DNA of 22,526 nucleotides, from positions 1-22,526 of the IMG/VR virus record IMGVR_UViG_3300047375_000218. One strand, 5' to 3'. This stretch comes from a virus. The first letter of the stretch is position 1. Each line of letters begins with the position of its first letter. Under the pieces are notes generated by a model. The model had not been told where the DNA came from. It saw only the letters and a list, made by a program, of their open reading frames with translations, and ran no database searches. The position numbers and the translations under genes were made by a program. Of the stretch, positions 13,614-22,437 are shown piece by piece.

Positions 13614-13790
13614 TTATTGTATAGGGAGCCTAGTAATTTTAAAGCGGTCGTTCTCGTAGTAGTTGCACTTGGAGTTAATAACCTTCGTTAATGTACTGTA
13701 GTTTAAGTTTAAGGCCTTGCAAGCTTTGGTAAGTGTCCTAAACCCTTCTACCTTTCTAGAGCTCTTAGACTCTACTAAAATAATCCTCAT
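13614..13790 (-). CDS. 58-residue protein with a helix-turn-helix-like segment
   Basis: I chose the start at ATG 13790-13788 because it overlaps the upstream stop as ATGA and begins MRIILVESKSSRKV, the usual look of this protein type. The longer frame up to 13877 overlaps another coding gene. The segment GFRTLTKACKALNLNYSTLT (about 16-35) resembles NUMOD1-like or other short helix-turn-helix units (compare the pattern sl.eAakalgis.sti..ai), followed by a basic C-terminal strand. DNA binding is therefore plausible, but no partner domain is present. It is the last gene of the accessory island. Confidence 0.65.
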   Translation of the reverse strand: MRIILVESKSSRKVEGFRTLTKACKALNLNYSTLTKVINSKCNYYENDRFKITRLPIQ

Positions 13791-13909
13791 ATAAATAAAA
13801 TAGCGTTTTCGTATTCCTTTTCTATGCAAGCGGCGCAGGCTTGCGGATCCTCTCCAGCTTCCGTATAAATAGCGCAAGCTTCGCAGTAGTAACCTATCTT
13901 AGTAGACAT
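13787..13909 (-). CDS. 40-residue zinc-ribbon-like protein
   Basis: This small ORF begins at ATG 13909-13907 inside the end of the upstream membrane-protein gene and ends in the ATGA overlap with the 58-residue gene. It carries two CxxC pairs (CEAC at residues 9-12 and CAAC at 25-28) within an acidic 40-residue chain, which suggests one zinc-binding ribbon. The tight overlaps and Cys spacing argue that it is real. The function is unknown. Adaptor or nucleic-acid contact roles are common for such proteins (inference). Confidence 0.6.
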   Translation of the reverse strand: MSTKIGYYCEACAIYTEAGEDPQACAACIEKEYENAILFI

Positions 13910-14048
13910 AGCCTAAAAGAATGTACTGTATAAAGCTCATAGCTTTAAATAGTAGGTTCATCATTGGGAAGAATAGCAGCCCGCTAGCTACTATTATTAA
14001 GAGCGTCCTCGCGTCTCTTTGGTCCTGGGTTATTACTTTCTTTGCCAT
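13899..14048 (-). CDS. 49-residue single-span membrane protein, holin candidate
   Basis: The ORF starts at ATG 14048-14046 and ends TAA 13901-13899, overlapping the next gene by 11 bases and the previous by 16. It has a charged N-terminus (MAKKVITQDQRDAR) and then a hydrophobic span (TLLIIVASGLLFFPMMNLLF) with a second weaker hydrophobic part (SFIQYILLGYVY). The charge-then-span layout is compatible with a small holin or a membrane-located accessory protein. The endolysin lies about 4.5 kb upstream, so the holin idea is only a guess. Confidence 0.6.
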   Translation of the reverse strand: MAKKVITQDQRDARTLLIIVASGLLFFPMMNLLFKAMSFIQYILLGYVY

Positions 14049-14194
14049 TGCTTTAAATAAAATTTAGCTTTTTCTAAGCTGTTAAACTTGCGGCTTCCGT
14101 AGAAGCTTGGGGTATTGGGTAAGGCGGTAAAAGAGCCGGGCTGAGTCTCTAAGATCTCAGCGCCGGCGTATTGTATTACTCTCTTAAGCTTCAT
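14033..14194 (-). CDS. 53-residue basic protein, function unknown
   Basis: The ORF starts at ATG 14194-14192, overlapping the 79-residue gene's stop by one base (TAATG), and runs to TAA 14035-14033. The chain is basic (MKLKRVIQYAGAEILE at the start and LEKAKFYLKQWQRK at the end). Its C-terminal coding bases overlap the start of the membrane-protein gene. The coupling on both sides supports expression. I recognise no family. Confidence 0.6.
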   Translation of the reverse strand: MKLKRVIQYAGAEILETQPGSFTALPNTPSFYGSRKFNSLEKAKFYLKQWQRK

Positions 14195-14433: not shown

Positions 14434-14435
14434 TT

Positions 14436-14493
14436 TAGTAGTTGTTGTTGTTATTACTGGTGTAAATATACGGCAGTTTTTTAACTATGCAAA
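14436..14493 (-). promoter_or_regulatory. Bacteroidota-type promoter with repeated leader, copy 1
   Basis: On the minus strand TTTG (14493-14490) is followed after 19 bases by TATATTTA (14470-14463), which fits the -33/-7 promoter of Bacteroidota (TTTG, TAnnTTTG). The 37 bases 14472-14436 are identical to 15036-15000 and hold the -7 element plus a leader with three AAC units. The ATG of the 79-residue gene lies two bases beyond the repeat. An A-rich stretch upstream may help. Confidence 0.82.
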
Positions 14494-14530
14494 TAAAATG
14501 CTATTTTTTTTCATATTTTTTTTTAGGCCA

Positions 14531-14553
14531 TAAAAAAAGCCCCTCGCGGGGCT
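14531..14553 (-). terminator. Rho-independent terminator of the 145-residue gene
   Basis: The minus strand forms AGCCCC-GCGA-GGGGCT (14553-14538), a perfect six-pair stem closed by a GNRA tetraloop (GCGA), followed by a run of T (14538-14532). The hairpin starts five bases after the stop of the 145-residue gene. It ends that unit before the next promoter cassette begins. Confidence 0.92.
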
Positions 14554-14558
14554 CTCTC

Positions 14559-14996
14559 TTATTCGTTCAGTCCTAGCTTCTCTAGCTCTTCGTATTTCTT
14601 AGTACCGTACTTAGCTCCGATATTTAAAGTAGCGTACTTAAATTGAAAGTCTATACCTAGCTGCTTCTCTACTCCGTTATTATTGTACTCGTAGATATCT
14701 TCCATACCGTTAAAGCTTCCGCTTTGAAATACGCTTCTAAAATCTGCTTTAGCTTCTTTTATGTGATCTGCGTAAATATCTCTAGGATCAATCCAAACAT
14801 CTACCGAAGAGCCCATACTGAAAAAGTCGGTAGATACCTGGCACTTACAGCCGTAGAAAGCTTTTACATATTGCTTTACCATTGCTGACTGTCCGCGACC
14901 GGTTAGGTGTGTAGTGTAACCTTCTTTAGGAGCGTTGTAAGCTTCGATGTTTTTAAATTCTACTCCGTAAGCTGTAAAGTTGATTTTAGTTTTCAT
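14559..14996 (-). CDS. 145-residue LPD29-like accessory protein
   Basis: The protein starts MKTKINFTAYGVEFKNIEAY. Its middle reads QYVKAFYGCKCQVSTDFFSM and then GSSVDVWIDPRD, a pattern like the LPD29-type domain of phage polyvalent proteins (a short helix, a strand with S-FSMGxSIDV). The C-terminal part is charged and ends YGTKKYEELEKLGLNE. It is monocistronic: its own promoter cassette lies just upstream (-7 at 15034-15027) and a strong terminator just downstream. Such isolation between terminase and portal is typical of a moron-like gene. The biochemical role is unknown, and the LPD29 assignment is by eye. Confidence 0.75.
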   Translation of the reverse strand: MKTKINFTAYGVEFKNIEAYNAPKEGYTTHLTGRGQSAMVKQYVKAFYGCKCQVSTDFFSMGSSVDVWIDPRDIYADHIKEAKADFRSVFQSGSFNGMEDIYEYNNNGVEKQLGIDFQFKYATLNIGAKYGTKKYEELEKLGLNE

Positions 14997-14999
14997 TTG

Positions 15000-15057
15000 T
15001 AGTAGTTGTTGTTGTTATTACTGGTGTAAATATACGACTACTTTTTTAATATGCAAA
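15000..15057 (-). promoter_or_regulatory. Bacteroidota-type promoter with repeated leader, copy 2
   Basis: TTTG (15057-15054) and TATATTTA (15034-15027) are again separated by exactly 19 bases. The stretch 15036-15000 is identical over 37 bases to copy 1. The ATG of the 145-residue gene follows four bases later. The -33 element and the stretch between the boxes lie inside the last codons of the 57-residue gene, so the promoter is embedded in coding sequence. Confidence 0.82.
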
Positions 15058-15211
15058 CTTTTCCGTAAAAATTTGCATTTTTTTTTAGTGTGTAGCACTC
15101 TCCCTCTACCAATATATTAACGCAAGCCCCGTCTTTACTAAGCTGCGGAAAGGCTACTATTTTTTTATCCATTAAAAAAAAAGTTAACTCTTTAGCTTCC
15201 TCTACCGTCAT
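15038..15211 (-). CDS. 57-residue protein downstream of the large terminase
   Basis: The ORF starts at ATG 15211-15209, overlapping the terminase stop by one base (TAATG), and ends at TAG 15040-15038. It reads MTVEEAKELTFFLMDKKIVA with a later GACVNILVEGECYTLKK and NFYGKVCILKK, a small alpha/beta protein with three cysteines. Its last bases double as the promoter of the next gene. I know no family for it. The coupling to the terminase supports translation. Confidence 0.6.
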   Translation of the reverse strand: MTVEEAKELTFFLMDKKIVAFPQLSKDGACVNILVEGECYTLKKNANFYGKVCILKK

Positions 15212-16762: not shown

Positions 16763-17236
16763 CTACATTTCTATAATATCGTCTATGTCTAAAGTTCTGC
16801 CTTCCGGGCGCTCTAGCTTGGATCTACTAGCAGGGGTTAAACCAAATTCTATTAGCATCATTCTAATACGGCGCCACGCGTCCGCGCTTTGAGCTGCGGC
16901 CGGGTGCGCCTTTAATACTTTAGCTCCGTTACTGCTGAAGGTTTCATATATGCGGCCTTCCCTTTGTAGCTTGAGCTCTGCGCTGTACCATTCCTGGTAA
17001 GCCATAGCTAAAAGCTCTAGAGCTGTATCGTCTATTTGACTAAGCAGGCCCATACTATGTAAGTGGCTTACGCTTCGCTCGTACATTAGCTTACCCTTTG
17101 CTTTTAAGAAGCTGGGCGCTTTATTTACGGGCTTACTTACCGTAGTGCTTACCGGGTTTTTTGGTGCTCGGTCCTTTCGTGCCGTGCCTCTTTTTTGCTT
17201 TAGTGCCTGCGGTGCGGGCCTTCGTCCTTTAGCCAT
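16763..17236 (-). CDS. terS: Terminase small subunit (P27 family)
   Basis: The 157-residue basic protein has the P27 signature at the C-terminus, where KAHPAAAQSADAWRRIRMML is followed by EFGLTPASRSKL. The N-terminal 30 residues are rich in Lys/Arg and the middle is a helical DNA-binding core (LSQIDDTALELLAMAYQEWY). It recognises the packaging start site on DNA and directs the large subunit. It lies between HNH and large terminase, the conserved order for cos phages with an HNH partner. Confidence 0.92.
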   Translation of the reverse strand: MAKGRRPAPQALKQKRGTARKDRAPKNPVSTTVSKPVNKAPSFLKAKGKLMYERSVSHLHSMGLLSQIDDTALELLAMAYQEWYSAELKLQREGRIYETFSSNGAKVLKAHPAAAQSADAWRRIRMMLIEFGLTPASRSKLERPEGRTLDIDDIIEM

Positions 17237-17335
17237 TTTCTTTACTTCCTAGATTCCTCATTCAATTTTGACACCATAAAAATGGTGGTCTGCGCGTCGA
17301 TGTACAGCCGTTTTGCTTCTACATTTGATACCCCC
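17237..17335. other. 99-base intergenic region before the small terminase; candidate cos/control site
   Basis: This is the only clear gap in the packaging segment. It contains a hairpin with arms CACCAT and ATGGTG (17272-17277 and 17282-17287) around an AAAA loop, extendable by an outer GAC/GTC with one bulge. Next to the HNH stop there is a short dyad, ATACC-N6-GGTAT, with a G run in the spacer. Neither hairpin is followed by a T run in the gene direction. A cos site is a hypothesis from position only. Confidence 0.35.
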
Positions 17336-17635
17336 CTAGGTATACTTTTTATCTCGCTCGCTTCTGCTCTTTTTGTTATGGCAGCTTGTGCACATTGGCT
17401 GTAAGTTTTCGTGGTTCCACTTACTACCGCCTAATCTTATAGGTGTAATATGATCCACTACAGTAGCTACAGCTGTGCACTCTCTACATAGTGGCTCCCC
17501 AGCTAGAATATAAGCGCGGAGCTTACGCCAGTCTCTACTATTGTAAAAGTCTGCGTCCTCTCCTTGATTACCTTTAAAGGTCTTACGCTTTGCTAGCCAA
17601 GGTTTATTACTTCCTTTCTTCGGTACGTAAGGCAT
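17336..17635 (-). CDS. HNH endonuclease of the packaging module
   Basis: The 99-residue protein contains a full HNH core: zinc-binding CREC (Cys50, Cys53) and CTSCH (Cys82, Cys85), with catalytic Asp61-His62 in VVDHITPIRLGG, Asn77 in NHENLQPMC and His86. The N-terminus is basic (MPYVPKKGSNKPWLAKRKTF). In HK97-like cos phages an HNH protein next to the terminases is needed for specific cutting of cos. The same arrangement here suggests the same role. It ends 99 bases before the small terminase and starts three bases after the 60-residue gene. Confidence 0.93.
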   Translation of the reverse strand: MPYVPKKGSNKPWLAKRKTFKGNQGEDADFYNSRDWRKLRAYILAGEPLCRECTAVATVVDHITPIRLGGSKWNHENLQPMCTSCHNKKSRSERDKKYT

Positions 17636-22127: not shown

Positions 22128-22249
22128 TTTAATGTGATTGTAGGGTGTGCGTAAACATAAAGTAAAGCCAAAACGCTCAATGCAAACATCGCTATCGTAA
22201 AGGCTAAAAGGTAGAATAGAATCTTTGTGGCTTTCTCTTGCTCATTCAT
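22124..22249 (-). CDS. 41-residue single-span membrane protein
   Basis: The ORF starts at ATG 22249-22247, directly after the second copy of the 26-base leader (which carries AAAGAGAG before the ATG). A charged start (MNEQEKATK) is followed by the hydrophobic span ILFYLLAFTIAMFALSVLAL and a short tail. This is the layout of a small membrane protein, such as an early accessory protein or a holin-like peptide. The next ORF overlaps its stop (ATGA). Confidence 0.62.
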   Translation of the reverse strand: MNEQEKATKILFYLLAFTIAMFALSVLALLYVYAHPTITLK

Positions 22250-22272
22250 CTCTCTTTGGTTTTAAAGGTTAA
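22247..22272 (-). repeat. 26-base leader repeat, copy next to the membrane protein
   Basis: The minus strand reads TTAACCTTTAAAACCAAAGA then GAGATG here. It matches 22365-22340 at 25 of 26 bases. The copies are offset by 93 bases. It contains the purine-rich AAAGAGAG just before the ATG and probably serves as a ribosome binding site and leader. Confidence 0.8.
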
Positions 22273-22339
22273 TAATGCCAGTAATCTGTTTTAATGGCAA
22301 AAGTTAGTGGTTTCAGTTGTCAAGTAATCCTTAACTACT
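22273..22339 (-). other. Short intergenic stretch between the two leader repeats
   Basis: These 67 bases hold the three-codon ORF's tail, a weak inverted pair (TGCCA and TGGCA, 14-base loop) and two copies of GATTACT. No ORF longer than a few codons and no full promoter is visible. Confidence 0.5.
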
Positions 22340-22365
22340 CATCTCTCTTTGGTGTTAAAGGTTAA
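22340..22365 (-). repeat. 26-base leader repeat, copy without a gene
   Basis: This copy also ends in GAGATG, but the frame that follows reads ATG AGT AGT TAA, so it encodes only three residues. Its upstream end touches the T run of the terminator-like element. A lost or replaced gene, or a leader peptide, would explain it (inference). Confidence 0.75.
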
Positions 22366-22437
22366 AAAAGACCCCATTAACTGCGTGTACTTTGCAGAGC
22401 CTACTTCGCCTTGTTCTTATGGGTAAGGGGTGGGGTC
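22364..22437 (-). terminator. Structured terminator-like or small RNA element
   Basis: On the minus strand GACCCCA (22437-22431) can pair with TGGGGTC (22376-22370), followed at once by six T (22369-22364). Between the arms are two small hairpins: CTTA-CCCA-TAAG (22427-22416) and CTGC-N9-GCAG (22397-22381). This makes a three-way junction closed by the outer stem. The whole lies just after the stop of the partial gene. A plain terminator with an unusually large loop, or a structured small RNA, are both possible. Confidence 0.6.

Follow-up and report, generated by a model that had tools for sequence, protein, structure and literature searches.

Why should two separate accessory genes of one phage begin with the same stretch of non-coding DNA? 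The question was raised by a virus record of 22,526 nucleotides (the window, that is, the whole stretch of DNA that was analysed). Pfam matches identified the small and large terminase subunits, the portal protein, a primase/polymerase-AAA protein and a PD-(D/E)XK protein, the packaging genes matching Phage_portal, TerL_nuclease/TerL_ATPase and Terminase_4; the remaining genes were known from reading of the ORF list. The first-pass annotation had proposed that two identical promoter/leader cassettes drove two accessory genes and that their identity reflected either a recent duplication or a shared control point. We consider it likely that the two stretches were the constant 5' ends of swappable cassettes located between the terL and portal genes.

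Anatomy of the paired repeat

On the minus strand, positions 15036-15000 and 14472-14436 were the same in 37 of 37 nucleotides (CGTATATTTACACCAGTAATAACAACAACAACTACTA), and self-comparison of the window placed this repeat within a 71-nt pair with 85% identity. Such a repeat is far beyond chance. At both promoters (P1 and P2) the gap between TTTG and TATATTTA was 19 bases, and the ATGs of the 145-aa and 79-aa ORFs came 2-3 nt past the end of each 37-nt stretch. Sites of the form TTTG-N18-20-TATATTTR occurred twice in the 22.5-kb window, namely at P1 and P2, where a first-order Markov control predicts 0.08. A terminator was located between the two ORFs (Table 1). Each of these elements had been described in the first-pass annotation, and its view of two promoter/leader cassettes serving two separate accessory genes was supported.

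The -33 box and the spacer of P1 were also the final codons and the stop of the 57-aa ORF (15038-15057). Because P1 was embedded in the end of this ORF, the coding sequence and the promoter limit each other at these positions. A leader peptide was rejected, since the leader had no start codon and the ATG reading through it in some relatives was upstream of the promoter. At the other end of the locus, the last cassette had no terminator, so the right-flank ORFs were presumably transcribed by read-through from its promoter.

Table 1. Features of the two cassettes and their flanks in the window
Feature	Position	Strand	Description
P1	15027..15057	minus	-33 TTTG 15057-15054, 19-nt spacer, -7 TATATTTA 15034-15027
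Leader A, slot 1 (CACCAGTAATAACAACAACAACTACTACAA)	14997..15026	minus	Predicted start ~15022-15021, from the 4-5 nt spacing in F. johnsoniae
Slot-1 accessory gene, 145 aa	14559..14996	minus	ORF; member of a 125/145/160-aa family
Terminator GCCCC-GCGA-GGGGC-T7	14532..14554	minus	Closes the slot-1 cassette, between both ORFs
P2	14463..14493	minus	-33 TTTG 14493-14490, 19-nt spacer, -7 TATATTTA 14470-14463
Leader A, slot 2 (CACCAGTAATAACAACAACAACTACTAAA)	14434..14462	minus	Predicted start ~14458-14457
Slot-2 accessory gene, 79 aa	14194..14433	minus	phrog_6004
Left constant flank, 57-aa ORF after terL	15038..15211	minus	3' end holds the P1 -33 box
Right constant flank, 53-, 49-, 40- and 58-aa ORFs	13614..14194	minus	Presumably read from the promoter of the last cassette

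Exchange of small genes between fixed boundaries

Related phages were gathered through their TerL proteins (82-99% identity), and the interval from the TerL stop to the portal start was compared. The first-pass annotation had suggested looking for further copies of the cassette. The window itself contained only the two promoters of this form, and the related phages had 57 cassettes at 37 loci with 1-4 units each. Every unit was arranged in the order promoter/leader, small gene and, in the non-last units, terminator. Namely, a GC-rich hairpin with a T run closed 20 of 20 non-last units; a terminator followed two of the 37 last units, and the other 35 continued into a constant small-gene operon. 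The left flank was constant in the relatives (a 57/58-aa ORF, or an 85-aa ORF in a few), as was the right flank (53-, 49-, 40-47- and 58-aa ORFs). In 21 relatives the locus had a single slot and the extra cassette was missing.

About 25 gene families in total were found behind the leaders, a number in which distant homologues may be split because families were grouped at a local BLOSUM62 score of 60. Leader A (TATATTTACACCAGTAATAACAAC...) preceded 22 families and a second one, leader B (TATATTTGAAGTGTCAAACAACAA...), preceded four. The last base of the -7 box was A in leader A and G in leader B. Leader B was restricted to non-last units (13 of 20, versus 0 of 37 last units; Fisher p = 3e-8, which is descriptive since the counted contigs are related). 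Leader A was in slot 1 of three multi-slot loci, namely those of the window, L023 and L056. Moreover, seven gene families were present in multi-slot loci and also as the sole cassette of single-slot loci, which is the pattern that recombination between P1 and P2 would produce.

In pairwise comparisons of loci with different last genes, homology ended at a median of 7 nt upstream of the ATG and restarted at about the stop codon, with apparent breakpoints spread over tens of bases. Since homology stopped near the ATG and resumed near the stop codon, the gene itself was exchanged. Thus, the exchanged unit is the gene from start to stop, and the promoter, leader and terminator remain. Exchanges were also observed in other sets of phages, between flanks of 93-95% identity: a 60-aa ORF in L107 corresponded to a 128-aa ORF in L138 and L139, and a 111-aa ORF in L116 to a 66-aa ORF in L124. 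The anatomy of the cassette, its recurrence and the gene exchange between fixed boundaries were directly visible in these alignments.

The leaders were not limited to this locus. The exact 27-mer TATATTTACACCAGTAATAACAACAAC was found in 26 viral contigs, and an exact 20-mer comprising the -7 box and leader in 36. A degenerate form of the leader was present in 62 viral contigs, versus three for a reversed control pattern; about four of the 62 matches (L112, L115, L120 and L130) were in non-leader-like contexts, in agreement with that control. Leader A or its near variants preceded small ORFs in L022 and its relatives, L101, L114, L116/L124, L126, L128, L131 and others, and leader B or its near variants did so in L107/L138/L139, L136, L142, L144, L145 (which lies within a record of 224,680 bases) and L146. 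In L022, L107, L138 and L139 the unit was also directly after terL. Protein comparison of these stretches placed L116, L124, L126 and L128 in a loose group with the window and put L022 together with L107/L139, and most of the other carriers had zero or single proteins in common with the rest. Additionally, in one relative of the window a diverged copy (TATATTTGCTCCAGTAACAACAAC) preceded a 116-aa gene at a different genome site. The same start signal is kept, with unrelated small genes exchanged behind it, across many viruses of Bacteroidetes-type bacteria. In cultured-phage DNA we found no near match to the window and only weak leader-like matches. A known RNA element was rejected, since no Rfam family gave a credible match to the leader.

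Two known kinds of phage module resemble this arrangement. PeSLs (promoter early stem-loop) are mobile cassettes with a regulatory role in T4-type phages (Arbiol 2010; Comeau 2014, cited in PMC4503421). They consist of a conserved promoter and a terminator, are found repeatedly between exchangeable genes, and have had modular shuffling attributed to them. The repetition of a promoter and a stem-loop terminator between exchangeable genes was found here as well. However, the phage had packaging genes of the Phage_portal, TerL and Terminase_4 types and the promoter boxes TTTG/TATATTTA of Bacteroidota, rather than the genes and early promoter of a T4-type myovirus. Furthermore, unlike in PeSLs, the conserved unit spanned most of the 5' leader nearly to the start codon, one leader was used across lineages with few or no common proteins, and the last unit had no terminator. 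Morons are classed by their expression independent of the rest of the prophage (PMC7380047). The likeness to them is that an accessory gene carrying a promoter and a terminator of its own sits between genes that adjoin each other in relatives, as illustrated by the 21 single-slot relatives. In contrast to morons, the promoter/leader was common to many unrelated genes. By analogy, the cassettes would work like PeSLs or morons, and we filed them as neither; the first assignment was withheld because the T4-type context was absent.

Accessory genes are poorly known in Bacteroidetes phages, and leader A or B may serve as a sequence tag for exchangeable, mostly unknown small genes in them. For a phylum in which Shine-Dalgarno sequences are ignored, the module may also provide a portable promoter-leader of natural origin. 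Finally, it would represent a second setting, beyond T4-type phages, where one conserved unit of expression may also act as the joint at which genes are swapped.

Expression signals and the proposed mechanism

The consensus of Bacteroidota sigma-ABfr promoters is TTTG/TANNTTTG (Baez 2019, PMC6847099), and in F. johnsoniae transcription starts 4-5 nt after the -7 box, whose last base is almost always G (PMC6847099). Both window copies and 50 of the 57 cassettes had the -33 TTTG at 19 nt from the -7 box. Thus, the promoters resembled the sigma-ABfr type in their boxes and in the predicted distance to the start, and differed from it in that leader A ended the -7 box in A where G is usual. Bacteroidota do not use Shine-Dalgarno sequences; their initiation regions tend to be unstructured, with A preferred at -3, -6 and ~-12/-13 (PMC6847099). 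The leader of ~30 nt was similar to these Kozak-like regions: A was present in 82% of leader-A units at -3, 64% at -6, 80% at -12 and 91% at -13. The mean folding energy from -28 to +30 was -0.7 kcal/mol for leader A and -0.2 for leader B versus -4.6 for 31 other window genes, these controls including leaderless genes that start inside or beside a preceding gene. In leader B, GTGTC and GACAC would pair into a 5' hairpin (-5.5 kcal/mol in L003) if transcription started directly after the -7 box; it is not claimed here since a start 4-5 nt further 3' would remove most of it.

In the mechanism that we propose, a cassette comprises a promoter of the Bacteroidota sigma-A type, a short A/C-rich leader that is unstructured and has no Shine-Dalgarno sequence, and one small gene, with an intrinsic terminator on every cassette but the last. 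Each cassette would be transcribed independently by the host RNA polymerase, and its leader would let translation start efficiently in a host that does without Shine-Dalgarno pairing, so that the module would provide strong, stand-alone expression. The near-identical promoter/leader blocks on one side, and the terminators or the constant downstream genes on the other, would supply the homology for recombination, which would swap, add or delete genes. The promoter of the last cassette may also drive the downstream small-gene operon. Such feeding of the operon would explain both the missing terminator and the constant leader A of the last cassette.

What distinguishes these leaders from other Bacteroidota initiation regions is that the sequence itself was conserved, beyond its composition. 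The 24-nt core (-7 box and leader) had 96.9% identity between loci, whereas identity was 62.4% at the four-fold degenerate sites in the neighbouring 3' end of terL and 66% across the 19-nt spacer of the promoter. This exceeds what an unstructured A/C-rich leader requires and hints at a further sequence-specific role. Such a role could be the shared control that had been suggested, where a factor acting in trans (a phage protein, a host RNA-binding protein or a small RNA) would bind leaders A and B and co-regulate the genes behind them, this binding being the reason for the conservation. The persistence of the leader in lineages with few or no common proteins and non-matching flanks would fit such binding, as would the division of two distinct leaders by slot. 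However, no partner protein or RNA and no Rfam family was identified, promoter escape, translation or recombination could instead conserve the leader, and the leaders interchanged before one and the same gene (the 145-aa gene followed leader A in the window and leader B in L003 and L006). We therefore regard shared control in trans as a possibility, and a doubtful one. The broader idea, that leaders A and B form a sequence-specific expression code common to otherwise unrelated Bacteroidota phages and read by a host or phage factor, with accessory (possibly counter-defence) genes traded as plug-in ORFs, is put forward just as tentatively.

History of the leaders and products of the genes

The recent duplication that had been offered for the window would account for the identity of its leaders by recency alone, and the 37 identical positions in a 71-nt context of 85% identity agree with a tandem event. 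The 145-aa protein was 97-98% identical in L003 and L006, where its gene followed leader B in slot 1, which suggests that leader A in slot 1 of the window may be a recent replacement. On the other hand, leader A was also present in dozens of relatives, before genes in slot 2 or before single genes, and in other phage lineages, and the upstream regions of the two copies were separately conserved contexts, the end of the 57-aa ORF and a terminator. With the module in front of ~22 families, local duplication as the full account was refuted by the relatives, and recency as the whole reason for the identity is unlikely. According to the first-pass annotation, absence of the cassette from close relatives that keep both genes would count against it. 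This came about by half: none of the relatives found had both genes, those with the 79-aa gene (in slot 2 of 2, 1 of 1 or 3 of 4) had leader A wherever it was found, and L003 and L006 kept the 145-aa gene behind leader B. Since these close relatives carried the gene with another leader, the pairing of leader and gene was loose and leader A was exchangeable rather than bound to the 145-aa gene. Within the exchangeable cassette system, the best reading of the identity of the window's leaders is that a leader was replaced or converted, and slot 1 may have been converted recently from slot 2. Two identical leader copies should also favour the loss of slot 1 by deletion.

Leader A could alternatively be a host leader taken up by phages, as its promoter was of the host sigma-A type. 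However, the exact 20-mer had a single occurrence among 84,980 prokaryote species genomes, by chance and in a non-leader context, and we consider this origin very unlikely. Because the same 20-mer was present in many viral contigs, leader A appeared to be a feature of phages, within the limits of the form scanned, namely the exact 20-mer with the A-ending -7 box. Integron-like capture, with the leader as the recombination site of a dedicated recombinase, would resemble integron cassettes in that single genes are swapped precisely, at one site and between fixed boundaries, and it was rejected as scarcely credible since the cassette ends had no attC-like hairpin or other suitable inverted repeat, no integrase-like ORF was recognised on reading the ORF list of the window (a record that may be incomplete), each cassette had its own promoter, and the breakpoints varied over tens of bases as in homologous exchange.

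The products of the exchanged genes were approached through the two proteins of the window. For the 145-aa family (members of 125, 145 and 160 aa, 12 aligned sequences), the predicted model was of good confidence (pLDDT 84) and its best named structural neighbours were large-polyvalent-protein-associated (LPD) phage proteins (E 2.7e-4), while a PDB fold search gave no match at E<=0.001. LPD29 identity was rejected at the sequence level: PF18847 (LPD29) had no match in the window, and profile comparison of the 145-aa protein with a true LPD29 protein was negative. The predicted fold therefore resembles LPD phage proteins without sequence-level support. The roles proposed for polyvalent proteins are action against restriction and CRISPR and a jump-start of replication or transcription (PMC5512222). 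The 79-aa protein belonged to phrog_6004, a family with no assigned function, and its predicted fold was of low confidence (pLDDT 55) and was left unused. That the cassette genes have host-takeover or counter-defence functions is a guess and the weakest step of our explanation. The 128-aa ORF of L138 and L139 was a genuine LPD29 protein (E 4.9e-11); in L138 (3553-3939), a GC-rich phage, it stood alone behind leader B, at a site occupied by an unrelated 60-aa gene in a relative. In L144 (4888-5067, minus strand), a leader-B-like promoter preceded a HicA toxin gene, with a 136-aa ORF just 3' of it.

Two other features of the window were observed. Many independent contigs of relatives started at or near CCACCATTTTTATGGTGTCAAA..., ~500-550 bp before terL. 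In the window, which runs through this point, the shared start corresponded to ~17225-17345 on the minus strand, between an HNH-like ORF (17635-17336) and terS (17236-16763). This point is probably a cos site, the physical end of the genome, and the window would then run across the two ends in joined form. Another leader, AACCTTTAA[A/C]ACCAAAGAGAGATG, was likewise duplicated in the window, at 22246-22275 and 22339-22368 (minus strand, 93% identical), one copy beginning a 41-aa ORF and the other only a 3-codon ORF. L124 had two copies of this leader as well, which preceded the same 41-aa ORF and an 83-aa ORF, respectively.
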